A program made the position numbers and the translations under genes. From a virus: 33,595 nt of DNA. The notes beneath the pieces were generated by a model. The model was given only the letters and a program-made list of their open reading frames with translations. It ran no database searches and was not told the DNA's origin. The stretch spans positions 1 to 33,595 of IMG/VR virus record IMGVR_UViG_3300020021_000033; one strand, 5' to 3'. This document shows positions 2,400 through 33,595 of the stretch, one piece after another. Each line of letters opens with the position of its first letter. Positions within the stretch are counted from its first letter, which is position 1.

Positions 2400-2901
2400 C
2401 AACGCCTGGGTCAACTATGACGACGACAAGCTCGACGCTCGTTTCGTCACTGCCATGGCCGCACAACGGGGAACCGAACTCCACGCTTTGGCCAACGACC
2501 TCATTCGGTTGAAGGTCAAGCTGCCTGACGCCAAGAAAACGCTCAACCTCTATGTCAACGATGCCATCGGCTATCGCATGGAGCCCGAGCAGACTCTGTT
2601 CTACTCGCTCAACTGTTACGGCACGACCGATGCGATAGCGTTCCGGAATGACCTGCTGCGTATTCACGACCTGAAGACGGGAACCACCAAGACTTCCCTG
2701 ACTCAGCTCGAGATCTACGCAGCTTTGTTCTGCCTCGAATACGGACATCGTCCTGTCGACCTCGAGATCGAACTCAGGATCTACCAGAACAATGGTGTCA
2801 TCGTCGAGGTTGGCGATGCTGATGCGATCACTCACATCATGGCGAAGATCATCGCGTTCGACAAGCGGATCGAAGCACTCAGGCAGGAGGCGTCGGGTTG
2901 A
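2341..2901 (+). CDS. PD-(D/E)XK exonuclease, RecB/Cas4-like
   Basis: The 186-residue protein shows the motif set of RecB/Cas4-type phage nucleases: a helix with RGTELH (His48), then GTTD (Asp97), IHDLKTG (Asp110 and Lys112) and QLEIY (Gln122). Such enzymes resect DNA ends and work with helicases in replication and recombination. No strong ribosome binding site precedes the ATG at 2341, but it overlaps the upstream nuclease gene and the N-terminal residues read like the family start. The stop overlaps the TTG start of the next gene. The four cysteines of Fe-S Cas4 proteins are not visible, so a simple RecB-like nuclease is preferred. Confidence 0.8.
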   Translation: MRFNEHSRITGTHAFLSASNNAWVNYDDDKLDARFVTAMAAQRGTELHALANDLIRLKVKLPDAKKTLNLYVNDAIGYRMEPEQTLFYSLNCYGTTDAIAFRNDLLRIHDLKTGTTKTSLTQLEIYAALFCLEYGHRPVDLEIELRIYQNNGVIVEVGDADAITHIMAKIIAFDKRIEALRQEASG

Positions 2902-5564
2902 TCATCAATGAAGAAGACTACCTTGCGCACTACGGAATCCTTCGTAAGTCCGGACGCTACCCCTGGGGTTCGGGCAAGACGCAGGAAGCACGTAACCGCA
3001 CCTTCCTCGACACCGTTGAAGGCATGCGCAAAGAGGGCATGAGCGAATCCGAAGTTGCACGTGGTTTCGGAATGTCGACCACGCAGCTTCGTGCGCTCAA
3101 GTCCATCGCGAAGAACGCTCAGAAGCAGGCCGATATCAACATGGCCCAGCGACTGAAGGACAAGGGTTACTCCAACATTGCCATCGGCAAGCGTATGGAC
3201 ATGCCTGAGTCCACGGTTCGTACACTTCTTGCTCCCGGGCAGAAGGAACGAGCCGAGATCCTGGAATCCACGTCCAACATGCTCAAGCAGCAGGTTGACG
3301 AGAAGAAGTACGTCGACATCGGAAGTGGTGTCGAACAGCACCTCGCAATCAGCAATAACAAGCTGAAGATCGCCGTAGCCAAGCTTCAAGAAGAGGGCTA
3401 CACGATCCACTACATCCCGGTCGAACAACTCGGTACTGGACAGAAGACCACCATCAAGGTCCTCGCCAAGCCCGACGTTCCTTACACCGAGGTGTACAAG
3501 AACCGCGATCAGATCCGACAGATCACCAGTTACTCCGAGGATGGCGGTCGATCCTTCGACAGGATCCAAACGCCTCTCTCAGTGAGTTCCAAGCGCATTG
3601 CGGTCCGTTATGCCGAGCAAGGCGGTACGGCCGCTGACGGCGTCATCTACGTCCGTCCTGGGCGTACTGATCTGTCGCTCGGTGGTTCACGTTACGCCCA
3701 GGTTCGTGTTGCTGTTGATAACACGCACTACCTCAAGGGTATGGCGATGTACAAGGACGATCTGCCGCCCGGTGTCGACCTCATGTTCAACACGAACAAG
3801 AGCGACACCGGAAACAAGCTCGACGCCATGAAGAGCATGAAGGACGATCCGGACAACCCATTCGGTTCGGCCATTCGTCAGATCAAGGAAACTGGTCCTG
3901 ACGGACAGAAGCGCGTCACCTCTGCGATGAACCTTGTCAATGAGGAAGGCGACTGGGAACCTTGGGCTAGCACGCTGTCTTCGCAGATGTTGTCCAAGCA
4001 GAGTCCTGCTCTGGCCAAGGCGCAACTCGGAATGTCTCTCGAACGCAAGAAGAACGAGTTCGAAGAGATCAAGGTCGGTACCAATGCGGCCGTTAAGAAG
4101 AAATTGTTTGAGGCTTACGCCGATGACGCTGATTCCTCGGCTGTCCACCTCAAGGCTGCAGCTCTCCCGCGTCAGGGAACGCATGTCATACTTCCGCTCT
4201 CCTCGATCAGGGAAGGCGAAGTATACGCGCCCAACTACCGTGACGGAGAGCGCGTTGTCCTGATTCGCCACCCTCACGGTGGGATCTTCGAGATCCCTGA
4301 ACTAACCGTCAACAACCGGAATCCCGAAGGCAAGAAGCTTCTGGGTAATGCACCCGACGCTATCGGGATTCATCACAAGGTTGCGGAGAAGCTCTCAGGA
4401 GCCGACTTCGACGGCGATACAGTTCTCGTGATCCCGAACAACCAGGGCAAGGTCAAGACCAAGCCAGCACTTGAAGGTCTGAAGGGCTTCGATCCTCAGA
4501 AGTCGTACCGTGAGTACGATGGCATGACGCGCATGTCTCCTCGTACCAAGCAGATTCAGATGGGGATGATTTCAAACCTCATCACGGACATGACCATTCG
4601 TGGAGCTACCGACGCCGAACTCGCTCGAGCAGTCCGGCATTCCATGGTCGTGATCGACGCAGAGAAGCACAAGCTGGATTACAAGCAGTCAGCCATTGAC
4701 AACGGCATCTCGCAGTTGAAGGAGAAGTACCAGGGAAAGAAGAACGGTGGCGCGTCCACTCTGATCTCTAACTCTGGTACTACGTCGACTATCCGAATCG
4801 CCGAGCGCAAGGCCAGGTCCGTCACCAAGGGTGGACCAATCGATGAACATGGTCGAAAGGTCTACGAAGACACAGGCGAAGCGTACGTAGACAAGAAGAC
4901 AGGGAAGACGGTCTCTAAGACTGTCGAAGTTCCTCGACTCAGTAACGTCGATGACGCACACGTCTTCTCTTCAGGCACACCTATCGAGAAGATCTATGCG
5001 GATCACTCGAACAGTATGAAGGGATTGGCTAACGCTGCCCGAAAGGCGGCCGCATCCACTCGATCCCTTGCGTACTCACCTGAAGCCAAGGTTAAGTACG
5101 CCTCTGAGGTAGCCGCCCTCAATGCGAAGTTGAATCTCGCCTTGAGGAACAGCCCCCTCGAACGACAAGCGCAGATCCTAGCCAATGCCATCGTGTCCCA
5201 GAAGCGCCTTGCCAACCCTGACATGGAGCCGTCTGAGGTCAAGAAGCTGAAGGCACAAGCACTTGCCGAGTCGCGTGCACGAACAGGCGCAAAGAAGCAA
5301 CGCATCGAGATCAGTGACTCTGAGTGGGCAGCCATTCAGGCAGGCGCTATCAGTGGTAGCAAGCTGAACCAGATCCTGAACCACGCTGATCTCGATCAAG
5401 TCAAGAAGCTGGCCACACCTAAGCTGGCCCAGAAGATGAGTGACAGCAAGAAGTCTCAGGCTGTAACCATGCTTCGCAATGGACACACCCAAGCAGAGGT
5501 AGCAGATGCACTTGGTGTGTCTGTGTCTACACTCAAGCGAAGCATCAGTGGAGGTGATGGATGA
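2898..5564 (+). CDS. Putative single-polypeptide DFDGD-type RNA polymerase with N- and C-terminal helix-turn-helix segments
   Basis: This 888-residue protein contains LSGADFDGDTVLVIP with D503, D505 and D507, the metal-binding DxDGD signature of double-psi-barrel RNA polymerases (bacterial beta', YonO and QDE-1-like enzymes). About 45 residues earlier comes RHPHGG (R457-P459-H460), comparable to the beta' RxPxxH element. Residues about 277-301 (YLKGMAMYKDD, FNTNK) may form the first barrel, and residues about 550-600 may form bridge-helix or trigger-loop elements; both are inference. Before the core come LAHYG...YPWGSG (9-26), resembling the HHG-KWG tag at 8162-9052, then two helix-turn-helix-like segments (about 43-70 and 84-111). 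A third (about 858-884) ends the protein. The TTG start at 2898 follows AGGAGG at 2885-2890. The core looks conserved across phages, but transcription activity here is inferred. Confidence 0.72.
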   Translation: MIINEEDYLAHYGILRKSGRYPWGSGKTQEARNRTFLDTVEGMRKEGMSESEVARGFGMSTTQLRALKSIAKNAQKQADINMAQRLKDKGYSNIAIGKRMDMPESTVRTLLAPGQKERAEILESTSNMLKQQVDEKKYVDIGSGVEQHLAISNNKLKIAVAKLQEEGYTIHYIPVEQLGTGQKTTIKVLAKPDVPYTEVYKNRDQIRQITSYSEDGGRSFDRIQTPLSVSSKRIAVRYAEQGGTAADGVIYVRPGRTDLSLGGSRYAQVRVAVDNTHYLKGMAMYKDDLPPGVDLMFNTNKSDTGNKLDAMKSMKDDPDNPFGSAIRQIKETGPDGQKRVTSAMNLVNEEGDWEPWASTLSSQMLSKQSPALAKAQLGMSLERKKNEFEEIKVGTNAAVKKKLFEAYADDADSSAVHLKAAALPRQGTHVILPLSSIREGEVYAPNYRDGERVVLIRHPHGGIFEIPELTVNNRNPEGKKLLGNAPDAIGIHHKVAEKLSGADFDGDTVLVIPNNQGKVKTKPALEGLKGFDPQKSYREYDGMTRMSPRTKQIQMGMISNLITDMTIRGATDAELARAVRHSMVVIDAEKHKLDYKQSAIDNGISQLKEKYQGKKNGGASTLISNSGTTSTIRIAERKARSVTKGGPIDEHGRKVYEDTGEAYVDKKTGKTVSKTVEVPRLSNVDDAHVFSSGTPIEKIYADHSNSMKGLANAARKAAASTRSLAYSPEAKVKYASEVAALNAKLNLALRNSPLERQAQILANAIVSQKRLANPDMEPSEVKKLKAQALAESRARTGAKKQRIEISDSEWAAIQAGAISGSKLNQILNHADLDQVKKLATPKLAQKMSDSKKSQAVTMLRNGHTQAEVADALGVSVSTLKRSISGGDG

Positions 5565-5812
5565 TGGTTGAACACATGCTCACCACAGTGGACAACCCAT
5601 ACAGCCCTGTCACTGACTTCGATCAGTGGTATGCATGGGATCATCGTGCCGGTTATGACACACCATCATACCTAGCACGTGTAGTCAGGTCATCCGATGA
5701 ACTGTCGGAGGCTGACCAGAGTTCGGCTCAAGAGCAAGCGATCGATGACGTAGTTCGTGAGAATCCTGGATTCTACATCAAGGTTCCAGTTACGACGCAA
5801 CCGACAAGCTAG
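5561..5812 (+). CDS. Small conserved phage protein, function unknown
   Basis: An acidic 83-residue protein with LTTVDNPYSP near the start, FDQWYAWD, YLARVVRSSDELSEAD and a C-terminal AIDDVV. The pattern is familiar from small proteins next to the polymerase-like gene in other phages, but I know no function. Its ATG overlaps the stop of the upstream gene as ATGATG, with GGAGG seven bases before, so it is translationally coupled. An internal ATG at 5576 is a possible shorter start. The tight linkage suggests a partner or regulator of the polymerase-like protein, which is inference only. Confidence 0.75.
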   Translation: MMVEHMLTTVDNPYSPVTDFDQWYAWDHRAGYDTPSYLARVVRSSDELSEADQSSAQEQAIDDVVRENPGFYIKVPVTTQPTS

Positions 5813-7823: not shown

Positions 7824-8186
7824 GTGATCACAAGCATTCTCACAAGCATCAAGAAGGTGCTCGGCGTCGATGAGAGTTACACGGCTTTCGACGAAGACAT
7901 TCTGATGCACATCAACTCAGTCTTCTCGACCCTCAACCAGTTGGGGATCGGTCCGACTGAAGGCTTCATGATCGAGGACAGCACGGCCACGTGGGACGCC
8001 TTCCTCGGAACTGACAAGCGTCTCAACGCCGTCAAGACGTACACCTATCTCAGTGTGCGTTTCTTGTTCGATCCCCCGACGACCTCCTTCGTCATCGATG
8101 CGATGCAGAAGCAGATCGGGGAACTCGCATGGCGGTTGAACATCGTAAAGGAGGGGGATTCATGGGCACCGCCAACGGTCGTGTGA
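7824..8186 (+). CDS. Head-tail connector protein, gp6-like
   Basis: The 120-residue helical protein (VITSILTSIKKVLG, HINSVFSTLNQLG, YTYLSVRFLFDPP, QIGELAWRLNIVKEG) has the pattern of the gp6-like connector family, which binds below the portal ring to extend the DNA channel and seal packaged heads. The GTG at 7824 stands nine bases after GGGGGAGG and is preferred over the GTG at 7815, which lies inside the ribosome binding site. In most siphoviruses this gene lies downstream of the capsid gene; here it precedes the large terminase. The 3' end overlaps the next gene by 25 bases. Confidence 0.75.
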   Translation: MITSILTSIKKVLGVDESYTAFDEDILMHINSVFSTLNQLGIGPTEGFMIEDSTATWDAFLGTDKRLNAVKTYTYLSVRFLFDPPTTSFVIDAMQKQIGELAWRLNIVKEGDSWAPPTVV

Positions 8187-9052
8187 AACTCGACATGGTT
8201 CTTGCCCATCACGGAATCAAGGGCATGAAGTGGGGCGTTCATGAATCCAAAAGTTCGGGGCCTTCTGCTCGCCAAGTAGCCAAAACTACTAAGGCGACCG
8301 GAAAGATCGATAGCAAGATCGCCAGGTCGGAAACAGCACGAGCCATGCATCAACATCGAGCTGAGAATCTGAAAACGCATCTCGATGACATAGAGGAAAA
8401 TGGCTTGAATTCCAAAGCCATGCGTCAGCATTACGGAAAATCGTTGGACCTGAACAACGCCGTCTTCTATGGCTTGCATGGAAAAACTAAGGCTTTGGCG
8501 TTGGCTCAAAAACATCACGAAGTTCGAAACATGCTTGCAAGTGAAGCATATCTCGAAAACCATCACGAAAAGAAGATCGAACGACTCAAGAACGAGCGAG
8601 GGAAGATGAACCACAGTGCGATCATGACACTGACATTCACCGAGGCTCGCACCCAAATCGGCGAACGCAACCTCGATGACGTTCTCGCGCACCACGGTGT
8701 GAAGGGCATGAAGTGGGGTTCGCGAAAGTCCGGTGGCAGTAGTTCACCGTCGAAGCCTCACGTCCCCGTTTCTGCTGACCACATGACCGTCGAAGCGCAC
8801 AAGGCGACCATCCGAGAGGGCGGCGTTAAAGCTCTTTCCAACCACCAGCTTCAGCAGGTCGTCACCCGGCAGAACCTCGAACAGCAGCATCGGAACCTGA
8901 ACTACCAGCACCCAACGAAGCTGGGCAAGGGCCACGATCATGTCCGGCAGGTTCTCAAGATCGCCAAGACCGCGCAGGAGATTCACGGTCTGATCGGCAG
9001 TCCCGCGGGCAAGGCGCTCAAGACGGTCATCAAGACCGCTGCTAACCGCTAG
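8162..9052 (+). CDS. Head-module protein with two HHGxKGMKWG tags
   Basis: This 296-residue basic protein carries LAHHGIKGMKWG at residues 14-25 and LAHHGVKGMKWG at 175-186. The HHG-KWG tag is known from many unrelated proteins in phage head regions, but its role is not established; a packaging or virion-association signal is a fair guess. Between the tags is a lysine- and histidine-rich helical stretch that is visibly more AT-rich in DNA than its surroundings. The C-terminal part contains HMTVEAHKATIREGGVKALSNHQLQQVVTRQNLEQQHR and ends in a helix. The layout looks like two tagged units fused or duplicated. The ATG at 8162 follows AAGGAGGGGG; an in-frame start at 8129 is rejected. It lies between the connector and the large terminase. 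Confidence 0.75.
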   Translation: MGTANGRVKLDMVLAHHGIKGMKWGVHESKSSGPSARQVAKTTKATGKIDSKIARSETARAMHQHRAENLKTHLDDIEENGLNSKAMRQHYGKSLDLNNAVFYGLHGKTKALALAQKHHEVRNMLASEAYLENHHEKKIERLKNERGKMNHSAIMTLTFTEARTQIGERNLDDVLAHHGVKGMKWGSRKSGGSSSPSKPHVPVSADHMTVEAHKATIREGGVKALSNHQLQQVVTRQNLEQQHRNLNYQHPTKLGKGHDHVRQVLKIAKTAQEIHGLIGSPAGKALKTVIKTAANR

Positions 9053-12126: not shown

Positions 12127-14181
12127 ATGGAACCTGACTTCAGTGGGTATGCCACGAAGGCTGGGCTCAAGTGCTCCGACGGTCGGACCATCACGCCCGA
12201 AGCGTTCAAGCACATGGACAAGATGCAGGTACCGCTGGTCTGGCAGCACGGGCACAGCGATCCGGCCAACGTTCTGGGTCACGCCATCCTCGAAGCCAAG
12301 ACTGACGGCGTCTACGCCTACGGCTTCTTCAACGGGACCGACTCCGGCAAGCGCGGTAAGGAGCTGGTCGAGCACAAGGACATCAAGGCCCTCTCGATCT
12401 TCGCCAATCAGCTGGTCGAGAAGTCCAAGCAGGTCCTTCACGGCGAGATCCGTGAGGTCAGTCTCGTTCTGGCCGGAGCGAATCCCGGCGCGAAGATCGA
12501 CTACGTCCGTATCGCTCACAGCGATGGCGAAATCGAGACGCTCGACGACGAGGCAGTCATCACCACCGGTCTCGAACTCGAGTTCGGTCACGCCATGGGT
12601 GATGCCGCTTCCATGACGCCATCCGAGCTCGAAACCCAGGACGCTGCCGCACCCGAGAAGTCCGTACAGGACATCTTCGACGGCATGTCGTCCGAACAGC
12701 AGGACGCAGTCGCCTACATCGTCGATTCGGCGGTCACGGCTGCGAAGGACCCCGATGGCGATGGAGACGACGACGCCGCCAAGGGTGTGGCCGACGACAA
12801 GGCCGAGGGCACCGACAACGCCGCCCATTCGGACGACACCAAGACCGGCGAGGTTGCCCTCGCTCACCAGGAAGGAACCGGCCAGATGCCGAACGTGTTC
12901 GAGACCAAGTCCGAAGCGCCCAAGGGCCACGAGATGACCCACGACGCCATGCAGGGCATCTTCGTCGAAGCCAAGAAGCCCGGCGCCACTCTGAAGAGCG
13001 CGGTCGGCGACTACGCCTTCGCCCACGGCATCACGCCGATGGACATCCTCTTCCCGAACGCCCAGAACATCAGCAACACCCCGCAGTTCAACACCCGGCG
13101 CATGGAGTGGGTGCCCGGCGTCCTCAACGGCTGCAACCACACCCCGTTCTCCCGGGTCAAGACCATCACGGCCGACCTGACCCAGGACCAGGCGCGGGCG
13201 CTCGGGTACATCAAGGGCAACTACAAGAAGGAGGAGTGGTTCACGGTCAACCGTCGCTCGACCGGCCCCTCCACCGTCTACAAGAAGCAGAAGCTCGACC
13301 GCGACGACATCCTCGACATCACCGACTTCAACGTCGTGTCGTGGATGCAGGGCGAGATGCGGCTCATGCTCGAGGAGGAGATCGCGCGCGCGATCCTCAT
13401 CGGTGACGGCCGGGCCGTGGACGACGACGACAAGATCTCCGACCCGATGGCCGCGGTCGACGGTGCCGGCATCCGTTCCATCCTGAACGAGCACGAGCTG
13501 TTCGCCACCCAGGTCTACGTAAACATCGACGACGCCAGCTCCAGCTACCTGGAGGTCGTCGAGGCCATCATGCGCTCGATGCGCTTCTACAAGGGCACCG
13601 GCACTCCCGTCTTCTACACCACGCTCCCCGTCCTGACCAGCATGCTGCTGACCAAGGACACCCTGAACCGTCGGCTGTACGCGAACAAGGCCGACCTGGC
13701 CTCTGCCATGATGGTCAGCGACATCGTCGCCGTCGAGGCGATGGAGTCCAACACCACCCTGCTCGGCATCGTCGTCAACCTGGGCGACTACAACATCGGC
13801 GCGGACAAGGGCGGCGAGGTCAGCCTCTTCGACTTCTTCGACATCGACTACAACCAGTACAAGTACCTGATCGAGACCCGGATCTCCGGTGCGCTCACCC
13901 GCATCAAGTCCGCCCTGGTCATCAACAAGACCGCGGCCGCCAACGTGATCGTCGTCCCGTCGACCCCGACCTTCGTGAAGTCCACCGGCGTCGTCACCAT
14001 CCCGACCAAGACCGGTGTCGTCTACAAGAACTCGGACACCGCCGCCACCCTGACCGCCGGTGCGCAGACTGCCCTGGCCGCGGGTGCCACCCTCAACGTC
14101 GTGGCCGTCCCGGCTTCCGGCTACTACTTCGAGACCGCCAGCACCACGGTCGAGTGGTCCTTCACCATGCCGGCCGCCTGA
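12127..14181 (+). CDS. Prohead protease-scaffold-major capsid fusion
   Basis: The 684-residue frame combines three parts. Residues 1 to about 130 resemble the HK97-type prohead protease (S78): VPLVWQHGHSDP holds the candidate catalytic histidine (41 or 43), and GEIREVSLVLAGANPGA holds Ser112. Residues about 155-250 are acidic and helical and could be a scaffold (delta) part. From Met254 follows an HK97-fold major capsid protein (HTPFSRVKTITADLTQDQARALGYIKG, KKEEWF, YKKQKLDRDDILDITDFNVVSWMQGEMRLMLEEEIARAILIGDG). Residues about 612-684 form an appended beta-rich domain. The ATG at 12127 follows AGGAGGGA. A strong internal start at 12886 suggests that capsid protein is also made alone. Confidence 0.9.
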   Translation: MEPDFSGYATKAGLKCSDGRTITPEAFKHMDKMQVPLVWQHGHSDPANVLGHAILEAKTDGVYAYGFFNGTDSGKRGKELVEHKDIKALSIFANQLVEKSKQVLHGEIREVSLVLAGANPGAKIDYVRIAHSDGEIETLDDEAVITTGLELEFGHAMGDAASMTPSELETQDAAAPEKSVQDIFDGMSSEQQDAVAYIVDSAVTAAKDPDGDGDDDAAKGVADDKAEGTDNAAHSDDTKTGEVALAHQEGTGQMPNVFETKSEAPKGHEMTHDAMQGIFVEAKKPGATLKSAVGDYAFAHGITPMDILFPNAQNISNTPQFNTRRMEWVPGVLNGCNHTPFSRVKTITADLTQDQARALGYIKGNYKKEEWFTVNRRSTGPSTVYKKQKLDRDDILDITDFNVVSWMQGEMRLMLEEEIARAILIGDGRAVDDDDKISDPMAAVDGAGIRSILNEHELFATQVYVNIDDASSSYLEVVEAIMRSMRFYKGTGTPVFYTTLPVLTSMLLTKDTLNRRLYANKADLASAMMVSDIVAVEAMESNTTLLGIVVNLGDYNIGADKGGEVSLFDFFDIDYNQYKYLIETRISGALTRIKSALVINKTAAANVIVVPSTPTFVKSTGVVTIPTKTGVVYKNSDTAATLTAGAQTALAAGATLNVVAVPASGYYFETASTTVEWSFTMPAA
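12869..12888 (+). promoter_or_regulatory. Internal ribosome binding site and start for the major capsid protein
   Basis: AGGAAGGA (12869-12876) lies nine bases before an in-frame ATG at 12886. Translation from here gives a 431-residue protein beginning MPNVFETKSE, which is where independent major capsid proteins of this type usually begin. Third-position C/G use rises sharply just downstream, as expected if this part is translated much more than the protease part. Confidence 0.6.
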
Positions 14182-27050: not shown

Positions 27051-27493
27051 CACGACCAAGCATCCCAGCAAAACCACTACTGGCGTCGCTTACTCAGGAC
27101 ACAGTGGATGTGTCATGGACTCCGCCTAACAACGGTGGAAAGACGATCATCGAGTACCAGATCGGCTACAGTACAAGTCCAGCCGCTCCGGTCGTGAATC
27201 TCCCTCACGTGATTTCACCGCATACGGTTACCGGTCTTACCCCAGGCGTGACGTATTTCTTCTTCGTACGCGCTCGTAATGCCGATGGCTTCAGTACTTC
27301 ATGGTCTGTGCCTTCGGGCGTTCGAACGGTCCCAGGAGCGTACATTGGGGTTCTCGGTAGAACCAACTCCGGAGCAATCGTCAATGGCGGGTTCTGGGGT
27401 AGCGGTGTTCCGTACGTCAATGTGGGTGGCGTTTGGAAAATGGCCGAAGTGTGGGTCAACAATCAGGGGACTTGGACACGAGTTACCACGTAA
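27047..27493 (+). CDS. FN3-domain tail protein
   Basis: A 148-residue protein. Residues 3 to about 95 form a fibronectin type III domain: PAKPLLASLTQDTVDVSWTPP, NGGKTIIEYQIGY, HTVTGLTPGVTYFFFVRARNADGFS, WSVPSGVRTVP. A C-terminal part with YVNVGGVWKMAEVWVNNQGTWTRV is typical of phage fiber ends. FN3 domains on tails are thought to help weak binding to cell-surface sugars. The ATG at 27047 overlaps the previous stop; a longer in-frame start at 26714 would overlap two genes and is rejected. It is the last gene of the tail operon. Confidence 0.85.
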   Translation: MTRPSIPAKPLLASLTQDTVDVSWTPPNNGGKTIIEYQIGYSTSPAAPVVNLPHVISPHTVTGLTPGVTYFFFVRARNADGFSTSWSVPSGVRTVPGAYIGVLGRTNSGAIVNGGFWGSGVPYVNVGGVWKMAEVWVNNQGTWTRVTT

Positions 27494-27501
27494 GTAAATC
27501 G

Positions 27502-27519
27502 GCGTCAGGGTAGTGACGC
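27502..27519. terminator. Possible terminator or operator hairpin after the tail operon
   Basis: GCGTCA (27502-27507) and TGACGC (27514-27519) are exact inverted copies around a six-base loop. The hairpin stands nine bases after the last tail gene, but a G-run rather than a T-run follows. It may be a T-less actinobacterial-style terminator or a protein-binding palindrome. Confidence 0.4.
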
Positions 27520-27552
27520 ACGGGGGGTCAACAATCTTAGCTAGTCTTATGA

Positions 27553-27571
27553 ATCTCTCCCAATGAGAGAT
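27553..27571 (+). promoter_or_regulatory. Hairpin at the ribosome binding site of the lysis genes
   Basis: ATCTCT (27553-27558) and AGAGAT (27566-27571) form a 6-bp stem with a seven-base loop, ending one base before AGGGGAGG, the ribosome binding site of the 27586 gene. A stem here could position or partly mask the site. A weak TATGAA just upstream may be a -10 element. Confidence 0.35.
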
Positions 27572-27585
27572 AGGGGAGGAAATTC

Positions 27586-27981
27586 ATGTCCGCTGTTTGG
27601 CTCCGGGCGATCCTAATCATCGCTTGTTCAGTCTTCGGTTCGGGAGGCCTCTGGGCCTACTTGCAGAGCAGAAGCACCCGTGGAAACGCCACGACTCGCC
27701 TCCTGATGGGCGTGGCCTACGACAAGATCACGTCTCTGGGGCTCACCTACATCACGCGTGGGTCGATCACCATGGACGAGTTCGAGGACTTCCGTAAGTA
27801 CTTCTACGACCCGTACGAGGCTCTCGGTGGGAATGGTGTCGCCAAGCGCATCATGAGGCAGGTCGAGACACTACCGATCCGACCGCACAGCGAGAACCCC
27901 GCCATCTTCCAGAACAACGAAAGGGTTATCTCAAATGTCCGTGTCACAGCCGGCCCCGTCCAAGAAGCCGCTGCTGAGTGA
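27586..27981 (+). CDS. Membrane protein beside the holin, possible lysis partner
   Basis: A 131-residue protein with one N-terminal membrane segment (AILIIACSVFGSGGLWAYL, about residues 8-26), followed by a soluble part: SRSTRGNATTRLLMGVAYDKITSLGLTYITRGSITMDEFEDFRKYFYDPYEALGGNGVAKRIM. The soluble pattern is common in phage proteins encoded next to holins. It overlaps the holin gene by 47 bases, so the two are coupled. It could be an antiholin, a second holin or another lysis helper. A strong AGGGGAGG precedes the ATG. Confidence 0.7.
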   Translation: MSAVWLRAILIIACSVFGSGGLWAYLQSRSTRGNATTRLLMGVAYDKITSLGLTYITRGSITMDEFEDFRKYFYDPYEALGGNGVAKRIMRQVETLPIRPHSENPAIFQNNERVISNVRVTAGPVQEAAAE

Positions 27982-28300
27982 TCTCAGCTACTCGGTAATC
28001 AAGCACGCCGCGGCCATCGCGCTGCCTGCAGCAGGAGCACTATATTTCGCGCTTGCACAGATCTGGCACTTGCCCAAGGCCCAGGACGTTCTCGGGTCCA
28101 TTGCGGCCGTCAACGTCTTCCTGGGTGGCGTCATGGGCCTGTCACAGGCCTCCTACAACGGCAGTGACGCCAAGTACGCCGGAGCGATCGAGGTAACCAA
28201 CGACGGGACCAAGAAGGTCTACTCACTGAACCTCAACACGGACCCCGAGGACCTCGACAAGATGAACGATGCGACGTTCAAGATCAATGGCGCCGGCTAG
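27935..28300 (+). CDS. Holin, r1t-type
   Basis: A 121-residue protein with two membrane segments, IKHAAAIALPAAGALYFALAQIW (about 22-44) and VLGSIAAVNVFLGGVMGLSQASY (about 53-75), separated by a short loop with LPKAQDV. The ALPAxGALYFALAQIW...G.I.AVxxFLG pattern matches r1t-like holins, which form membrane lesions that release a lysin without its own export signal. The soluble C-terminus ends DLDKMNDATFKINGAG. GAAAGG precedes the ATG inside the upstream gene. The amidase it would serve is 20 kb upstream. Confidence 0.85.
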   Translation: MSVSQPAPSKKPLLSDLSYSVIKHAAAIALPAAGALYFALAQIWHLPKAQDVLGSIAAVNVFLGGVMGLSQASYNGSDAKYAGAIEVTNDGTKKVYSLNLNTDPEDLDKMNDATFKINGAG

Positions 28301-28301
28301 G

Positions 28302-28338
28302 GTCGCACGAAATACATGGCCTATGATGAGACCCCTAC
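28302..28338 (+). promoter_or_regulatory. Conserved phage promoter, copy 1
   Basis: TCGCACGA, TACATGGC, a -10 TATGAT at 28322-28327 and GAGACCCCTA immediately after it match the family consensus; the -10 differs from TATAAT at one position. It starts directly after the holin gene and drives the 28354 gene. Confidence 0.75.
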
Positions 28339-28353
28339 ATCTAGGAGAACGCC

Positions 28354-28647
28354 ATGTTCGACTCGTTGAAGACCCAGACCTCGCCGACCAAGCTCGATGA
28401 GGTCATCGACGCGGCACTCACTCAGATGCTCAGCATCGACCCCACCACCGAAGAGTACTCCAAGGCGGCGGACCAGGTAACCAAGCTCTACAAGCTCAGG
28501 GAGGCAACAACTCCCAAGCGCGTAGGTGCGGACACCCTGGCCGTCGTCCTGGGCAACCTCGCCGGAATCGGGATGATCCTGAGCTACGAGCACGTGCACG
28601 TTGTGACCTCTAAGGCCCTCGGATTCGTTCTGCGACCCAGCAAGTAA
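28354..28647 (+). CDS. Conserved small membrane protein
   Basis: A 97-residue protein. The N-terminal two thirds are soluble and helical (KLDEVIDAALTQMLSIDPTTEEYSKAADQVTKLYKLREATTPKRVGADTL), followed by a membrane-type segment AVVLGNLAGIGMILSYEHV and a short end HVVTSKALGFVLRP. The order EVIDxAL, DPTxEEYxKxxDQxxKLYKL, NLAGI, HVVTSKAL recurs in actinobacteriophage proteins near the lysis genes, without known function. The ATG follows TAGGAGAA. Copy 1 of the promoter family is just upstream and a terminator follows at 28681. Confidence 0.75.
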   Translation: MFDSLKTQTSPTKLDEVIDAALTQMLSIDPTTEEYSKAADQVTKLYKLREATTPKRVGADTLAVVLGNLAGIGMILSYEHVHVVTSKALGFVLRPSK

Positions 28648-28680
28648 CACAGCCATATCCCAGCAGGAAATCTAAACATG

Positions 28681-28724
28681 AAGGACATGCGAGAGTTAAC
28701 CACTCTTACATGCCCTTTGTGTTT
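28681..28724 (+). terminator. Rho-independent terminator
   Basis: A 13-bp stem in three blocks: AAGG (28681-28684) with CCTT (28714-28717), CATG (28686-28689) with CATG (28709-28712), AGAGT (28692-28696) with ACTCT (28702-28706). TGTGTTTT follows. It ends the 28354 transcript and is of a different type from the later terminator family. Confidence 0.7.
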
Positions 28725-28735
28725 TGCCTTTCTGT

Positions 28736-28770
28736 TCGCAGATATTACATGGCCTATAGTGAGACCCCTA
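28736..28770 (+). promoter_or_regulatory. Conserved phage promoter, copy 2
   Basis: TCGCAGA, TTACATGGC, -10 TATAGT (28755-28760) and GAGACCCCTA match the family. It lies directly behind a terminator and 15 bases before the 28785 gene. Confidence 0.75.
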
Positions 28771-28784
28771 TCACTGGAGACCCC

Positions 28785-28997
28785 ATGATGAACATCATCC
28801 CCATCACACCCGCCACCATCGACCTCATCACGAAACTGAACAACGGTGTTCGCCCCACCCTCGAAGACGAAGAGACTTTCTACGTCTACCGAGGAGAGGA
28901 CGCATACTCCGCGATCATCACTCGTGAGGCGTTCGATAAGGACGGCGCGTACCCGGAGTGGATGACCGTAATCAAAATCCTCTTCATCGGAAGCTAA
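28785..28997 (+). CDS. Small soluble protein, function unknown
   Basis: A 70-residue acidic protein beginning MMNIIPITPATIDLITKLNNGVRPTLEDEETFYVYRGEDAYSAIITREAFDKDG and ending in a hydrophobic VIKILFIG. Start candidates are ATG at 28785 or 28788, after GGAGACCCC. It has its own promoter copy and terminator. Unlike its neighbours it lacks a clear membrane segment. I do not recognise a family; the FxVYRGEDAYSAIIT part reads like a real folded domain. Confidence 0.65.
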   Translation: MMNIIPITPATIDLITKLNNGVRPTLEDEETFYVYRGEDAYSAIITREAFDKDGAYPEWMTVIKILFIGS

Positions 28998-29005
28998 TCT
29001 CAAAG

Positions 29006-29037
29006 CCTAACAGCCCCTAACACGGGCTTTAGGTTTT
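29006..29037 (+). terminator. Terminator of the CTAACAC-loop family, copy 1
   Basis: Stem CCTAA (29006-29010) with TTAGG (29029-29033) and AGCCC (29012-29016) with GGGCT (29024-29028), with one bulged C and loop CTAACAC. TTTTACC follows. It ends the 28785 transcript. Confidence 0.85.
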
Positions 29038-29041
29038 ACCT

Positions 29042-29081
29042 TTCGCACGATTTACATGGCGTATAATGAGACCCCTACGAA
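29042..29081 (+). promoter_or_regulatory. Conserved phage promoter, copy 3
   Basis: TTCGCACGA, TTTACATGGC, a perfect TATAAT at 29062-29067, GAGACCCCTA and GAAAGG. It is identical to copy 4. No good -35 hexamer stands 16-18 bases upstream; the conserved CGCA block occupies about that place. Confidence 0.85.
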
Positions 29082-29092
29082 AGGCCAACCCC

Positions 29093-29269
29093 ATGAAGAA
29101 GATGCTCGACCCCACCAAGAAGTTTGTCCGCCGTAACAAGGTTGTGATTGCTGTGATAGTGACAGCCACCCCGCTGATCGCACTCAACATCCGCAACGTT
29201 GTTTTCGCCCACAAACTTTTCGCGGAGTACGAACGTGAACTAGACAAGTATGTCCCCAACGAAGACTAA
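29093..29269 (+). CDS. Small single-pass membrane protein
   Basis: A 58-residue protein: basic start KKMLDPTKKFVRRNK, membrane segment VVIAVIVTATPLIALNIRNVVFA (about 16-38), then an acidic tail EYERELDKYVPNED. The positive-inside rule suggests N-in, C-out. The ATG follows GAAAGGCCAACCCC, and the gene is enclosed by the two exact 88-bp repeats, so it is a self-contained expression cassette. No family is recognised; roles in host takeover, superinfection exclusion or lysis timing are possible. Confidence 0.7.
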   Translation: MKKMLDPTKKFVRRNKVVIAVIVTATPLIALNIRNVVFAHKLFAEYERELDKYVPNED

Positions 29270-29277
29270 CCTCAAAG

Positions 29278-29309
29278 CCTAACAGCCCCTAACACGGGCT
29301 TTAGGTTTT
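29278..29309 (+). terminator. Terminator of the CTAACAC-loop family, copy 2
   Basis: Same stem (CCTAA-AGCCC with GGGCT-TTAGG), loop CTAACAC and TTTT tail as copy 1, located inside the second 88-bp repeat. It ends the 29093 transcript. Confidence 0.85.
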
Positions 29310-29313
29310 ACCT

Positions 29314-29353
29314 TTCGCACGATTTACATGGCGTATAATGAGACCCCTACGAA
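29314..29353 (+). promoter_or_regulatory. Conserved phage promoter, copy 4
   Basis: Identical to copy 3, with TATAAT at 29334-29339 followed by GAGACCCCTA and GAAAGG. It drives the 29364 gene. Confidence 0.85.
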
Positions 29354-29363
29354 AGGCCGCGCC

Positions 29364-29603
29364 ATGTTCCTCAGGAACCGTGAACTCCGTATCAAGATGG
29401 TCAAGAACCCCAAGAACAACGAAATCATTTCTGACGAAATGGAAGAGAGCTTTCACATCGAGCCCGAGACGATCACCAAGATCGCGAAGGAAATTGTGAA
29501 GATCTCCGCCATAGCTGTCGTCGTGGTACTCGCTGTCGACAAGGTTCTGACCACTGCGAGCGAGATCGCCGTCAAGAAGACGAAAAGCGCCGACAAAGAG
29601 TAA
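29364..29603 (+). CDS. Small single-pass membrane protein
   Basis: A 79-residue protein with a basic start (FLRNRELRIKMVKNPKNN), an acidic middle (EIISDEMEESFHIEPETITK), a membrane-type segment IVKISAIAVVVVLAVDKVLTTA (about 47-68) and a lysine-rich end KKTKSADKE. An in-frame ATG at 29328 lies inside the promoter and is rejected; ATG 29364 follows GAAAGGCC. It stands in its own promoter-terminator cassette. No family is recognised. Confidence 0.7.
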   Translation: MFLRNRELRIKMVKNPKNNEIISDEMEESFHIEPETITKIAKEIVKISAIAVVVVLAVDKVLTTASEIAVKKTKSADKE

Positions 29604-29610
29604 CCTCAAA

Positions 29611-29644
29611 AACCGAAGTCCCTAACACGGACTTTAGGTTTTCG
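29611..29644 (+). terminator. Terminator of the CTAACAC-loop family, copy 3
   Basis: AAGTCC (29616-29621) pairs with GGACTT (29629-29634) around loop CTAACAC, with outer AACC/GGTT pairing and a TTTT tail. Compared with copies 1 and 2 the stem has A-U where they have G-C, with both sides changed, so pairing is kept. Confidence 0.85.
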
Positions 29645-29658
29645 TTCTGCGAAAAAAT

Positions 29659-29677
29659 CCCGGTGGGGCATTTTGGC
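29659..29677. repeat. Repeat of a motif also found at 6051-6068
   Basis: CCCGGTGGGGCATTTTGGC here and CCCGGTGGGACTTTTGGC at 6051-6068 differ by one substitution and one inserted base, and both follow an A-run. One copy lies ahead of the packaging genes, the other between a terminator and a promoter. The function is unknown. Confidence 0.55.
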
Positions 29678-29681
29678 GAGG

Positions 29682-29719
29682 GGTCGCAAGAAATACACGG
29701 GCTATAATGAGACCCCTAT
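29682..29719 (+). promoter_or_regulatory. Conserved phage promoter, copy 5
   Basis: GTCGCAAGA, AATACACGGGC, TATAAT (29703-29708), GAGACCCCTA and GAAAGG. It differs from copies 3 and 4 at a few upstream positions, which shows which bases are kept. Confidence 0.8.
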
Positions 29720-29733
29720 CGAAAGGTACCATC

Positions 29734-29952
29734 ATGTCCAACGTCAAGTCCGTCATCACCAATGCCATGGAGAACGTTCGCAACAGCGAGAAGGACGACA
29801 CCACCGAGATCGAGACCCGAACCCCCATGACCTCCGCCACCAAGCGGATCGCCATCGGAACGGGCTTGGCCCTCGGCGTTGTCGCCGGAATCGTGTTCAC
29901 GCGAACCTTCCTCACCAGCACTGAGAAGATCGAGACCCCCGAAGACGTGTAA
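29734..29952 (+). CDS. Small single-pass membrane protein
   Basis: A 72-residue protein: soluble start SNVKSVITNAMENVRNSEKDDTTEIETRTPMTSATKR, membrane segment IAIGTGLALGVVAGIVFTRTFL (about 39-60), short acidic end TSTEKIETPEDV. The ATG follows GAAAGGTACC, after promoter copy 5. The layout (charged start, basic residues, membrane helix, acidic tail) resembles the other small membrane proteins nearby, though their sequences do not align well. Confidence 0.7.
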   Translation: MSNVKSVITNAMENVRNSEKDDTTEIETRTPMTSATKRIAIGTGLALGVVAGIVFTRTFLTSTEKIETPEDV

Positions 29953-29974
29953 CACCCAACAACAGAACTCAAAG

Positions 29975-30006
29975 CCTTAAGACCCTAACACGGTCTTTAG
30001 GTTTTC
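29975..30006 (+). terminator. Terminator of the CTAACAC-loop family, copy 4
   Basis: AAGACC (29979-29984) pairs with GGTCTT (29992-29997) around loop CTAACAC; outer CCT (29975-29977) pairs with AGG (29999-30001); TTTTCATTTT follows. The stem again changes in pairs relative to the other copies. Confidence 0.85.
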
Positions 30007-30032
30007 ATTTTCGGACCCAACAAGGAGATCCA

Positions 30033-30491
30033 ATGCGGAAGCTCGTATGCGCACTCGTAGTTATTGCCGCTGCTCTGGTTGCTTTCGTCTGGATCGCTGA
30101 GTCCGGAAGCGCGCAGGGAGACAGTCGCTCGACCGTCATCACGCTGGACCCGACAACCTCGCAGAATCAAAGCAGTCTCGCCGGCACCTGGAAGCAGATC
30201 CCGGACGGCATGTCGGGCATCACCATGACTGCGGTTGTCTCCGTCGACTCCATCCAGATCAACATATTCATGAACGGAACATCCGGAATCTACTGGCTGG
30301 GCTCGTTCGACCCGAAGATCATCGCCGGCAGCACTCTCTCACAGGGCGACTCCGACGCGATGGATCTCGACATCTTCGCATCGCAGGACAAGACCAAGCT
30401 GTTCGCCTACACGAACGGCCTTCTCAGCTACCAGTTCTCCATGCTGGGAACCACAAGCACCGTCTACCTTTCCAGGGAAGCTCAGTCATGA
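30033..30491 (+). CDS. Exported protein with signal peptide
   Basis: A 152-residue protein. Residues 1-28 are a classic signal peptide: basic MRK, hydrophobic LVCALVVIAAALVAFVWIA, then a likely cleavage after GSA. No lipobox cysteine follows. The mature part is beta-rich (STVITLDP, SLAGTWKQIPDGMSGITMTAVVSVDSIQINIFMNGTSGIYWLGSFDP). AAGGAGATCC precedes the ATG. It lies only 27 bases after a strong terminator and no promoter of the family stands between, so it depends on read-through or an unrecognised start. It overlaps the next gene by ATGA. The function is unknown; an exported phage protein could act at the cell surface. Confidence 0.7.
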   Translation: MRKLVCALVVIAAALVAFVWIAESGSAQGDSRSTVITLDPTTSQNQSSLAGTWKQIPDGMSGITMTAVVSVDSIQINIFMNGTSGIYWLGSFDPKIIAGSTLSQGDSDAMDLDIFASQDKTKLFAYTNGLLSYQFSMLGTTSTVYLSREAQS

Positions 30492-31279
30492 ATCTCAGCG
30501 GCATCACGAGCCGAGCTCAGAAACTCATCGCCAACAACGCGCCGTTGATCATGACGACGCTCGGCGTAACCGGCACAGTCGCCACCGCGGTCCTCGTAGG
30601 AAAGGCATCGTTCAAGGCCGCCGAGATCATCCAGCAGGAAATCTCCACAATCGCTGCCAACGGTGAGGGTCTGGTAAACGTCGGGCCTGAAGAGTTGATG
30701 GACACTCGGTACAAGATCAACCTCGTATGGAAGGAGTACATCCCTGCCGTCGCAACGGGCATCTTCACGATCGCCGCCATAATCTGTGCCAACAGGGTCG
30801 GTTCTCGTCGTGCTGCCGCTCTGGCATCGGCATATTCCATCTCCGAGAAGGCTTTCAGCGAGTACAAGGAGAAGGTACTCGAAAAGGTCGGACCGAAGAA
30901 GGACGCCGAGATCCGCGAAGCCCTCGCCAAGGACCAGATCGCTAAGAACCCGCCCAACAAGGAAATCGTGATCGTGGGCGGTAACAACGTCCTCTGCCGC
31001 GATGCCTGGTCGGGGCGGTACTTCCAGGGGAACCTCGAGGACATCAAGGCCGCGATGAACTGGGTCAACTTCCAGCTCAACACGCACGGTTCGATGACCC
31101 TGTCCGAGTTCTACAGCCGAATCGGCCTCGACCCGACTGAGGAGTCTGAGGAGGTCGGATGGAGTTCTGACAACCAGCTCGACATCACGTTCGACTCCGT
31201 CCTGACCGAGGACAACCGGCCCTGCCTGTCCTTCAGCTTCCAGGCCCACCCGTACCGCAACTTCAACCCGTTCAGTTAG
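30488..31279 (+). CDS. DUF6353-like membrane protein
   Basis: A 263-residue protein with two membrane segments, PLIMTTLGVTGTVATAVLVG (about 19-38) and YIPAVATGIFTIAAIICANRVG (about 84-105). They are followed by SRRAAALASAYSISEKAFSEYKEKVLEKVGPKKDAEIREALAKDQI, a helical stretch, and a soluble C-terminal domain with NVLCRDAWSGRYFQGNLEDIKAAMNWVN and LSEFYSRIGLDPTEESEEVGWSSD. This order matches a conserved phage membrane family I recall as DUF6353, without known function. It is coupled to the exported protein by ATGA. Confidence 0.75.
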   Translation: MNLSGITSRAQKLIANNAPLIMTTLGVTGTVATAVLVGKASFKAAEIIQQEISTIAANGEGLVNVGPEELMDTRYKINLVWKEYIPAVATGIFTIAAIICANRVGSRRAAALASAYSISEKAFSEYKEKVLEKVGPKKDAEIREALAKDQIAKNPPNKEIVIVGGNNVLCRDAWSGRYFQGNLEDIKAAMNWVNFQLNTHGSMTLSEFYSRIGLDPTEESEEVGWSSDNQLDITFDSVLTEDNRPCLSFSFQAHPYRNFNPFS

Positions 31280-31400
31280 AAATATGGACATGTTTGCGCC
31301 GTACTGCGGCGACTGTCCTGACGTGAAATCCTGTCACAGTGGTTACCCCTGCGTTCTCGTTCGAGAACTCAACAATCTCCCACCGAAGGAAACATTCATC

Positions 31401-31697
31401 ATGACCAGCGCCAAGAACATCACCTCGTCCGCCAACACTGACAGCCACGAGAAGGTCGCCGACGTCACCCCGATCGTCCCCGAGCAGGACAAGGGCGAGA
31501 AGACCAACAACACCGAGGCCACCGACGTCGTCGCGGCGACCAGCAAGCTCGACAAGCTGAAGGCCTTCGCCAAGAAGAACCAGCGCGTCCTGATCGCCGC
31601 CGGCGTGACCACGATCACCACCCTGCTGGTCCTGAACTCGCGCCGGAACTACCTGGCGGCCGAGGTCGAGGAGACCGAGGAGCCCACGCAGGCCTGA
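31401..31697 (+). CDS. Small single-pass membrane protein with C/G-biased codons
   Basis: A 98-residue protein from the ATG at 31401, preceded by AAGGAAA. It has an acidic, threonine-rich start (SSANTDSHEKVADVTPIVPEQDKGEKTNNTEATDVV), a basic stretch KLDKLKAFAKKNQR, membrane segment VLIAAGVTTITTLLVLNS (about 68-85) and tail RRNYLAAEVEETEEPTQA. Third positions are nearly all C or G, like the capsid and tube genes, suggesting high expression. The frame stays open upstream to an ATG at 31284 and would add a four-cysteine segment (YCGDCPDVKSCHSGYPC); that segment may be an extension or a chance frame. Confidence 0.7.
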   Translation: MTSAKNITSSANTDSHEKVADVTPIVPEQDKGEKTNNTEATDVVAATSKLDKLKAFAKKNQRVLIAAGVTTITTLLVLNSRRNYLAAEVEETEEPTQA

Positions 31698-31737
31698 TCC
31701 TGCATTCTCAGCAACAAACACAGAAAAGGACGAGCTC

Positions 31738-32271
31738 ATGCTCAAGAGGCAGATAACGTACAACGACCTCGATGACCGATCGGTGACGGAGGAGTACTGG
31801 TTCGGGCTCAACAAGGCCGAGCTGGCTGAGATGGAACTCAGCGGAAGCAACGGCAGCCTGACCGACTACTTCAAGACCATCGTCGAGGCCAAGGACGGCC
31901 GGGCCATGGTCAACACTTTCAAGGAGATCATCCTGAGCACCGTCGGGGTGCGATCCGAGGACGGGAAGCGCTTCGTCAAGACCGACGAGATCCGTGAGAA
32001 CTTCGAGCTCGGGGGCGCCTATCCCGAGCTGTTCATGGAGCTGGTGACCGACCCCGACAAGGCCGCTGAGTTCTTCAACGGCATCATGCCGAAGGACCTT
32101 GCGGAGAAGGTGGCGGCACAGCAAGCCGCCGAGCAGAGCAAGTCCGTCGAGGAGCTTCTGGCCATGGACCAGGCCGACTTCGACAGGATCGCCGGCACCA
32201 ACCCGCAGGAGATGTCCAAGGAACACCTGATGGTGGCGTTCCAGCGGAAGAACAAGACCCAGGCCGCATAG
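31738..32271 (+). CDS. Conserved phage protein, possibly a tail assembly chaperone relative
   Basis: A 177-residue protein starting LKRQITYNDLDDRSVTEEYWFGLNKAELAEMELSGS, then LTDYFKTIVEAKDGRAMVNTFKEIILSTVGVRSEDGKRFVKTDEIRENFELGGAYPELFMELVTDPDKAAEFFNGIMPKDLAEKV, and a variable end. The pattern (ITYxDxxxxxxxExxxFxLxKxELxEME, DGKRFxKxxExRxxF, AYxELFMELxTDxxxAxxFxNGIxP) is common in phages, where I recall it near tail genes as a chaperone-like protein. Here it stands among the small membrane genes. AAAAGGA precedes the ATG. The function is unproven. Confidence 0.7.
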   Translation: MLKRQITYNDLDDRSVTEEYWFGLNKAELAEMELSGSNGSLTDYFKTIVEAKDGRAMVNTFKEIILSTVGVRSEDGKRFVKTDEIRENFELGGAYPELFMELVTDPDKAAEFFNGIMPKDLAEKVAAQQAAEQSKSVEELLAMDQADFDRIAGTNPQEMSKEHLMVAFQRKNKTQAA

Positions 32272-32296
32272 CGCGGAGCGATGAGGGGAATCAGCA

Positions 32297-32327
32297 GAGC
32301 CTTGGTGGGAGGGGTCTCCTAAGGCTC
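32297..32327 (+). terminator. Hairpin after the 31738 gene, possible terminator
   Basis: GAGCCTT (32297-32303) pairs exactly with AAGGCTC (32321-32327), and GGAG/CTCC can pair inside. ATTTTAAAC follows about 13 bases later, so it is not a classic terminator. It is the only strong structure before the next promoter. Confidence 0.45.
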
Positions 32328-32382
32328 GACCCGGAAGCTGATTTTAAACGACAGCCGGTTCCGTGAAACATGCGCCCGACTC

Positions 32383-32423
32383 ATCGCAGGATTTACATCG
32401 CCTATAATGAGACCCCTACGAAA
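32383..32423 (+). promoter_or_regulatory. Conserved phage promoter, copy 6
   Basis: ATCGCAGGA, TTTACATCGCC, TATAAT (32403-32408), GAGACCCCTA and GAAAGG. It stands about 2.7 kb after copy 5, showing that the promoter family serves separate gene groups. Confidence 0.85.
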
Positions 32424-32433
32424 GGCCAACCCC

Positions 32434-32580
32434 ATGAACCCCAAGCTTCTGAAGCCCGTTGTCAAGATTGCTCTCGCCCTCGCCACCTCTGTACTTGTCG
32501 GATCACTGATCAAGGCAGAGAAGTCGATGAACGAGCGAGTTGACGCGTACTTCGAGACCCAGGAAGACCCGGAAAACTGA
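32434..32580 (+). CDS. Very small membrane protein
   Basis: A 48-residue protein: NPKLLKP, membrane segment VVKIALALATSVLVGSLI (about 9-26), then charged KAEKSMNERVDAYFETQEDPEN. It starts after GAAAGGCCAACCCC, the same leader as the 29093 gene, with promoter copy 6 upstream and a terminator downstream. The fixed cassette format is the main evidence for a gene this short. Confidence 0.7.
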   Translation: MNPKLLKPVVKIALALATSVLVGSLIKAEKSMNERVDAYFETQEDPEN

Positions 32581-32595
32581 CCGTATCATCTCAAG

Positions 32596-32629
32596 ACTAC
32601 AAGACCATTTACACGGTCTTTTAGTTTTC
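32596..32629 (+). terminator. Terminator of the loop family, divergent copy 5
   Basis: AAGACC (32601-32606) pairs with GGTCTT (32615-32620), outer ACTA (32596-32599) with TAGT (32622-32625), loop ATTTACAC rather than CTAACAC, and a TTTTC tail. The outer pairs differ from the other copies yet still match each other. Confidence 0.8.
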
Positions 32630-32651
32630 GCCACCAGTGAGGTAGAGACAT

Positions 32652-33284: not shown

Positions 33285-33296
33285 CACGAACATGTC

Positions 33297-33431
33297 ATGA
33301 TAGCCAACAGAGAGCTGGTCAAGCAGGCATATCCTTCAAAAACATGGGGCCTGAAGGTCGACAAGATGTCAGATACCCAGGTCTTCGCAGTCATGCTTCG
33401 TCTGAAACGACAAGGGAAAATAAGGGGTTAA
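33297..33431 (+). CDS. Very small conserved protein
   Basis: A 44-residue basic protein, MIANRELVKQAYP then WGLKVDKMSDTQVFAVMLRLKRQGKI. The NRELVxxAYPSxxWxxKVxKMxDxQVxAxxxRLKxQG pattern recurs as a tiny gene in other phages, which supports it despite its size and weak start context. It begins 13 bases after the 32652 gene and ends three bases before the next ATG, consistent with an operon. The function is unknown. Confidence 0.6.
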   Translation: MIANRELVKQAYPSKTWGLKVDKMSDTQVFAVMLRLKRQGKIRG

Positions 33432-33433
33432 CG

Positions 33434-33574: not shown

Positions 33575-33595
33575 AGAAGGGCATATTCAGCATGC

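Follow-up and report, generated by a model that had tools for sequence, protein, structure and literature searches.

Single-chain RNA polymerases (RNAPs) built on two double-psi barrels are already known from several phages. YonO of phage SPbeta (family profile phrog_8308), a phage-encoded chain of about 100 kDa with the motifs RxPH and DxDGD, is a proven and strictly DNA-dependent RNAP, for which start-site finding was left open (PMC5467207). Phage P23-45, with its virion RNAP (vRNAP) gp96 and its non-virion RNAP (nvRNAP) gp64, and the crAss-like phages, with the virion RNAP gp66, provide further single-chain examples; in the virion form of such enzymes, a motif specific to the lineage serves for the transcription of (pre-)early genes (PMC10770324). 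Here we describe a gene from the virus record IMGVR_UViG_3300020021_000033, of which the whole stretch analysed (positions 1 to 33,595, 33.6 kb) is called the window. Its 888-residue product has the single chain, the two motifs, the approximate size and the phage origin in common with YonO, and we consider it rather probable that it is a capsid-packaged two-barrel RNAP which transcribes early genes from its own promoters. It differs from YonO, which has no N-terminal tag and transcribes late genes, and from the P23-45 and crAss-like virion enzymes, which are fused to giant virion proteins, whereas here packaging would use a 20-residue N-terminal tag and the helix-turn-helix (HTH) parts are built in. 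The solved structures closest in fold, QDE-1 and RDR2, are eukaryotic RNA-silencing enzymes without a tag and, to our knowledge, without HTH parts. The gene and the parts of its product are as follows.

2898..5564, plus strand: gene of the single-chain two-barrel RNAP, 888 amino acids, TTG start (open reading frame, PHROG match, structure model, Foldseek)
3003..3233, plus strand: two N-terminal HTH units, residues 36-112 (Pfam, model helices)
3597..3944, plus strand: putative beta-type barrel DPBB-B, residues 234-349, KGMAMYxDDLPxGVDLxFNTNK (strands in the model, invariance)
4176..4436, plus strand: catalytic barrel DPBB-A, residues 427-513, with RHPH at 457-460 and DFDGD at 503-507 (invariance, model, Foldseek)
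4638..4670, plus strand: HSMVVIDAEKH, residues 581-591 (most conserved helix)
5442..5546, plus strand: C-terminal HTH, residues 849-883 (Pfam HTH_23 above cut-off, model)

An earlier note, made from the letters alone, had proposed a single-polypeptide RNAP with HTH segments at both ends for this frame. The 888 codons are open from a TTG start, with AGGAGG a few bases 5' and the start overlapping the stop codon of the preceding exonuclease gene, and the frame is genuine and not a product of chance, since its match to PHROG 4291 spans residues 3-885 with 1325 bits. The members of this family, named 'RNA-dependent RNA polymerase' in PHROG and 'helix-turn-helix DNA-binding protein' in actinophages, are full-length orthologues annotated by motif only, with the same gene order, helicase-(HNH)-VRR_NUC-exonuclease-polymerase. 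By tblastn, 249 phage records hold relatives at ≥80% cover, from phages of Arthrobacter, Gordonia, Streptomyces, Lactococcus, Curtobacterium, Rhodococcus, Microbacterium and Faecalibacterium; identity to the full-length orthologues is 39-64% in the phage records listed (e.g., RosaAsantewaa gp54 and Lactococcus 1706 orf75). That such proteins are usually left as hypothetical, as had been stated, is partly right, but many records are labelled HTH protein, RNA-dependent RNA polymerase or putative RNA polymerase. One orthologue, gp106 of Siphovirus contig89 (KF594185.1), carries the annotation 'tail fiber protein'; this label and the 'RNA-dependent RNA polymerase' of many RefSeq orthologues are probably both wrong.

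The AlphaFold2 model, built with 81 related sequences, has a mean pLDDT of 81. Its comparison with the PDB by Foldseek gave 18 matches at E≤1e-3, all 18 of them two-barrel RNAPs with a probability of 1.0, headed by QDE-1 (6e-9), P23-45-type gp64 (2e-7) and plant RDR2. The position given in the earlier note for DFDGD (503-507) is exact, and in the model this loop, of the type that binds metal in two-barrel RNAPs, sits between helix 493-498 and strand 508-513. D503-D507, R457, P459 and H460 are invariant in the 81 relatives; the second motif announced there is present, at R457-H-P-H460, but is spelled RxPH and not RxPxH. In the putative second barrel R270 and K280-G281 are also invariant, which makes R270 and K280 candidates for the two basic residues that this barrel contributes to the active site of two-barrel RNAPs, and the K280-G281 segment would resemble the KG loop of the beta subunit, while the helix HSMVVIDAEKH is a possible equivalent of the bridge helix. 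At the level of profiles, 13 out of 15 diverse family members are matched by RdRP of Pfam, which reaches 16.3 bits on the polymerase itself, below its gathering cut-off of 23.8; phrog_8308, the profile of the YonO family, covers residues 436-515 only (E=1.5e-4). A phmmer search of the polymerase against PDB sequences gave no match. A profile search against the PDB was set aside, its matches being designed repeat proteins, HTH proteins and, weakly (E=0.57) at the DxDGD region, a chain of 8h2n called 'Tape tail measure protein', which is probably the P23-45 vRNAP. Two results speak against the assignment: global TM-scores are low (about 0.3) despite the strong Foldseek E-values, the barrels not being superposed individually, so that the relative placement of domains in the model is uncertain; and the pairwise hhalign comparison with YonO alone is not significant (E=0.32). 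With these taken into account, the model and the profiles make a two-barrel polymerase fold near certain, and an active DNA-dependent RNAP very likely.

The HTH segments, foreseen as two ahead of the core and one behind it, are found there by both Pfam and the helices of the model. HTH_23 (849-881) and CENP-B_N (80-112) score above their gathering cut-offs, HTH_38 (79-109) just under and HTH_Tnp_1 (45-84) lower still, and the helical units of the model cover residues 36-88, 93-136 and 849-883. These three DNA-binding parts bear on the name used by PHROG and RefSeq, according to which the protein would be an RNA-dependent enzyme. That name agrees with QDE-1 and RDR2 being the best fold matches and with the weak RdRP match in Pfam, but the carriers are double-stranded DNA phages without an RNA stage, structures with a DNA template are among the QDE-1 matches, and the phage relative YonO is strictly DNA-dependent (PMC5467207). 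We therefore regard it as very improbable and the least likely of all the alternatives considered.

A further feature of this family is the N-terminal tag, presented here with a protein of the late region that carries its sister form.

2916..2975, plus strand: N-terminal tag of the polymerase, residues 7-26, DYLAHYGILRKSGRYPWGSG (near-invariant, predicted disordered)
8129..9052, plus strand: late-region protein with two DUF7211 tags, LAHHGIKGMKWG and LAHHGVKGMKWG, cores at 8207-8236 and 8690-8719 (Pfam PF23847)

The start HxG...SGRYx[WY]GSG is shared by 204 members out of 215 that are distinct and complete. Averaged over residues 9-26, entropy is 0.59 bits (0.29 over 16-26) versus 1.43 for the whole protein, placing the tag at rank 28 of 870 windows, close to the catalytic segments, and pLDDT stays below 50 over residues 1-32. 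A terminus so conserved and yet unstructured suggests a linear binding or targeting motif. The idea that SGRYPWGSG is widespread on other annotated phage proteins proved wrong: nearly all annotated matches are this polymerase, with few exceptions in metagenomic contigs. The sister tag, LAHYGVKGMKWG, is Pfam PF23847 (DUF7211, of unknown function) and is borne, in the same phages, by several proteins encoded in the virion region; in the window, LAHHG[IV]KGMKWG appears twice in the protein at 8129..9052. The two tags have in common the LxHxG[IV] start, the pattern [DE]xxLxHxG around it and the WG end, but the core is KGMKWG in one and RxSGRYPWGSG in the other, and Pfam keeps them separate: the polymerase lies below the PF23847 cut-off, with no match at E≤1 among the matches listed. 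Searching with the DUF7211 motif retrieved 244 phage records. By genus they number Arthrobacter 95, Gordonia 55, Streptomyces 54 and Lactococcus 13, as do those with the polymerase; each genome has the motif about four times, and of the sites listed most belong to the late region.

Both forms look interchangeable on bodies of one family. A phrog_7021-like body carries the MKWG form in phage Circum and SGRYKWGSG in L083, and the tag on GNAT acetyltransferases is the MKWG form in OhMyWard (L292:12070-13629) and SGRYPWGSG in L195 (157-702, 2773-3801), which makes these acetyltransferases candidate virion-delivered enzymes. According to Pfam, a 2H-phosphoesterase-like domain (2'-5' RNA ligase-like) precedes DUF7211 in ReqiPoco6 gp15 (L289:14111-15724) and OhMyWard gp16 (L292:8557-10275); in L165:2107-5235 a domain that resembles it, by reading only, is fused in frame N-terminal to the tagged polymerase. 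These tag-linked 2H phosphoesterases are possibly injected enzymes, perhaps, to speculate, directed against host cyclic-nucleotide defence.

A pattern like that of the tag appears in the head genes, where the prohead protease and the major capsid protein form one chain.

12127..14181, plus strand: prohead protease (Peptidase_S78)-major capsid fusion with a linker rich in hydrophobic-x-His (Pfam, linker count)
13009..13056, plus strand: junction to the capsid domain, DYAFAHGITPMDILFP, a proposed protease site like LAHYG of the tag (linker count)

Of the 67 histidines in the linkers of nine Peptidase_S78-capsid fusions, 64 follow a hydrophobic residue or Ala at a distance of two positions, versus 460 of 1471 histidines in other open reading frames (Fisher p=1e-27). 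Since the linker histidines and the tag (L-x-H) show the same pattern, we propose hydrophobic-x-His as the site of the head protease, which would trim the polymerase at H11. The internal proteins of phage T4 have a capsid targeting sequence, a short signal at the N-terminus that the prohead protease cleaves; the likeness is one of resemblance only, its sequence being unrelated to that of the polymerase tag. A role of the tag as head-targeting signal and protease site is, from these sequence patterns, somewhat favoured. The tag could instead be a docking or autoregulatory motif used within infected cells, as the lack of an assigned function for DUF7211 would allow, but tag carriers cluster among head genes, one of their families is annotated as virion structural, and hydrophobic-x-His equals the sites of the protease-capsid linker, so that we hold this second role to be unlikely.

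That the polymerase travels in the virion is also indicated by records of its orthologues. In the GenBank record of Lactococcus phage 1706, orf75 is labelled 'structural protein' by the depositors, the label that depositors would give after mass spectrometry; the notes of the ReqiPoco6 record repeat it, and in RefSeq the doubly tagged orf7 of 1706 bears it too. The 1706 labels are strong but second-hand evidence. Two small untagged early-region proteins of this phage, orf62 and orf71, are also deposited as 'structural protein', and could be either further cargo or contamination. No virion proteomics was found in the Arthrobacter phage paper. Several points weigh against packaging and its wider setting: the label of orf75 is a depositor's word and virion preparations are open to contamination, the similarity between the polymerase and DUF7211 tags is short, and the co-occurrence of tag, promoter and polymerase may partly reflect a shared phage lineage. 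Altogether, the polymerase is probably packaged.

The early region of the window contains a repeated promoter-like element, TCGCA-N5-TACATGGC-N-TATAATGAGACCCC, with six copies between 28303 and 32416 where none is expected, and each copy runs up to the ribosome-binding site of the next gene.

28303..28335, plus strand: promoter-like element 1 (repeat, matrix)
28736..28768, plus strand: promoter-like element 2 (repeat, matrix)
29012..29028, plus strand: terminator-like hairpin ahead of element 3 (hairpin scan)
29043..29075, plus strand: promoter-like element 3 (repeat, matrix)
29284..29300, plus strand: terminator-like hairpin ahead of element 4 (hairpin scan)
29315..29347, plus strand: promoter-like element 4 (repeat, matrix)
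29615..29635, plus strand: terminator-like hairpin ahead of element 5 (hairpin scan)
29684..29716, plus strand: promoter-like element 5 (repeat, matrix)
29979..29997, plus strand: terminator-like hairpin (hairpin scan)
32384..32416, plus strand: promoter-like element 6 (repeat, matrix)
32601..32620, plus strand: terminator-like hairpin (hairpin scan)

At 29000-30010 and 32384-32620 the arrangement has the look of single-gene units, in which a hairpin (AGCCC-CTAACAC-GGGCT-T-rich) is followed by the element and then by the gene.

Scanned with a 33-bp matrix of the element, the window and the genomes of RosaAsantewaa and Camille have 6 copies each, Circum has 8, OhMyWard 10 and ReqiPoco6, which was left out of matrix building, 12; shuffles have 0. 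The structural halves of the genomes scanned contain none, the copies being confined to the early region. This distribution matters for a scenario close to YonO, which transcribes the late genes of SPbeta (PMC5467207): the enzyme would be a non-virion one, made during infection for the structural genes, with the tag in some other role. The position of the gene immediately upstream of the late genes in the window would suit such a role, but in linear relatives polymerase and late genes stand at opposite genome ends, YonO has no tag, the 1706 orthologue is labelled structural and the elements are early only. We judge this scenario improbable.

On Lactococcus and Faecalibacterium relatives the actinophage matrix gave no match. 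Read directly, the upstream regions of Lactococcus P162 repeat TTTTACATACCCTATAATGA, with a core common to the actinophages, those of Lactococcus 1706 repeat TTTTACATAYRCTATAGTAGAA (8 copies, 0 expected) and those of Faecalibacterium phage oengus repeat CGCGAAAAATACAGNNTCCTTTATGG, distantly similar only. The core TACA-N5-TATAAT is kept across phages of Streptomyces, Gordonia and Arthrobacter and those of Lactococcus. In a blastn search with the element, the record counts for Gordonia (55), Streptomyces (54) and Rhodococcus (4) equal those of the polymerase; Arthrobacter falls short with 56 of 95 records, as does Lactococcus with 4 of 13. The 18-bp core is accompanied by the polymerase in 40 of the 47 viral contigs that contain it; five of the seven others carry DUF7211, so these contigs may be incomplete members of the lineage. 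Bacterial genomes hold 14 occurrences of this core, against a chance estimate of about 30.

Many elements hold a perfect host-like TATAAT, and this tells against a dedicated promoter. The host RNAP might serve these boxes, helped by a phage activator on TCGC..TACA, and the phage polymerase would then have another template or a role in replication; TATAAT or a close variant indeed occurs in most actinophage and Lactococcus copies. But no -35 box stands at the usual distance in the element, TACA-N5-TATAAT persists as its core from actinophages to Lactococcus phages, TATAAT degenerates in some members (TTAAAT in RosaAsantewaa, TTTATGG in oengus) and the element co-occurs with the polymerase, which renders service by the host enzyme quite unlikely. 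Recognition of the elements as promoters by this polymerase is instead likely, and a motif argument of the same type has been made for the virion enzyme of P23-45 (PMC10770324). The earlier note had supposed that a sigma factor may not be needed; this gains in likelihood from the long lineage-specific element ahead of the early genes and from the lack of any normally spaced TTGACA/TATAAT pair in 27400-33595.

The mechanism which we propose would thus begin during head assembly, when the N-terminal sequence LxHxG...SGRYPWGSG would bring the polymerase into the prohead as a variant of the DUF7211 tag, the mark of proteins that would be packaged with it. The capsid-fused protease would probably trim the polymerase at L-x-H, and the enzyme would enter the cell together with the DNA. 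Its HTH parts could then recognise the element TCGC..TACA..(TATAAT)GAGACCCC, and transcription of each early gene would start there without the host sigma factor. More tentatively, we suggest that a lineage-wide cargo code, a motif of 20-25 residues (DUF7211 and its SGRYPWGSG variant) with a capsid-protease site, might load the head with proteins to be injected, a sigma-independent polymerase as well as acetyltransferases, 2H phosphoesterases and the like, after which the polymerase would fire single-gene early units from its own promoters.

The gene family was already catalogued and virion two-barrel polymerases were already known, whereas the hypothesis of tag-based packaging, the tie of the tag to DUF7211 and to the capsid protease, the HTH parts within the chain and the array of promoters are new; tag, promoters and virion evidence go beyond the earlier note. 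No paper was found that names, in such a setting, DUF7211, the promoter sequence or the peptides of the tags, and the activity, promoters, tag and packaging of PHROG 4291 proteins are not described in the literature searched. If the proposal is true, some 250 genes labelled 'HTH protein' or 'RNA-dependent RNA polymerase' become a large cultivable group of virion RNAPs whose hosts (Streptomyces, Arthrobacter, Gordonia and Lactococcus) are common in the laboratory, these enzymes gain a testable promoter, and DUF7211 gets a proposed function as capsid-cargo tag. A compact single-chain RNAP that recognises promoters with parts of its own is also relevant to the way in which start sites are found by minimal two-barrel RNAPs.

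Finally, the surroundings of the gene deserve mention. In linear relatives the polymerase is the penultimate gene at the right end, behind helicase-(HNH)-VRR_NUC-exonuclease. Because the polymerase block of the window leads directly into the late genes, the window would cover a junction that is the genome end in these relatives. A small gene adjoins the polymerase.

5561..5812, plus strand: small open reading frame adjoining the polymerase gene (frame list, annotation of relatives)

A small frame 3' of the polymerase gene is present in each annotated relative examined (1706 orf76 and others), and its product in the window could be a polymerase partner or a transcription factor. On reading, 1706 orf76 resembles the frame of the window.

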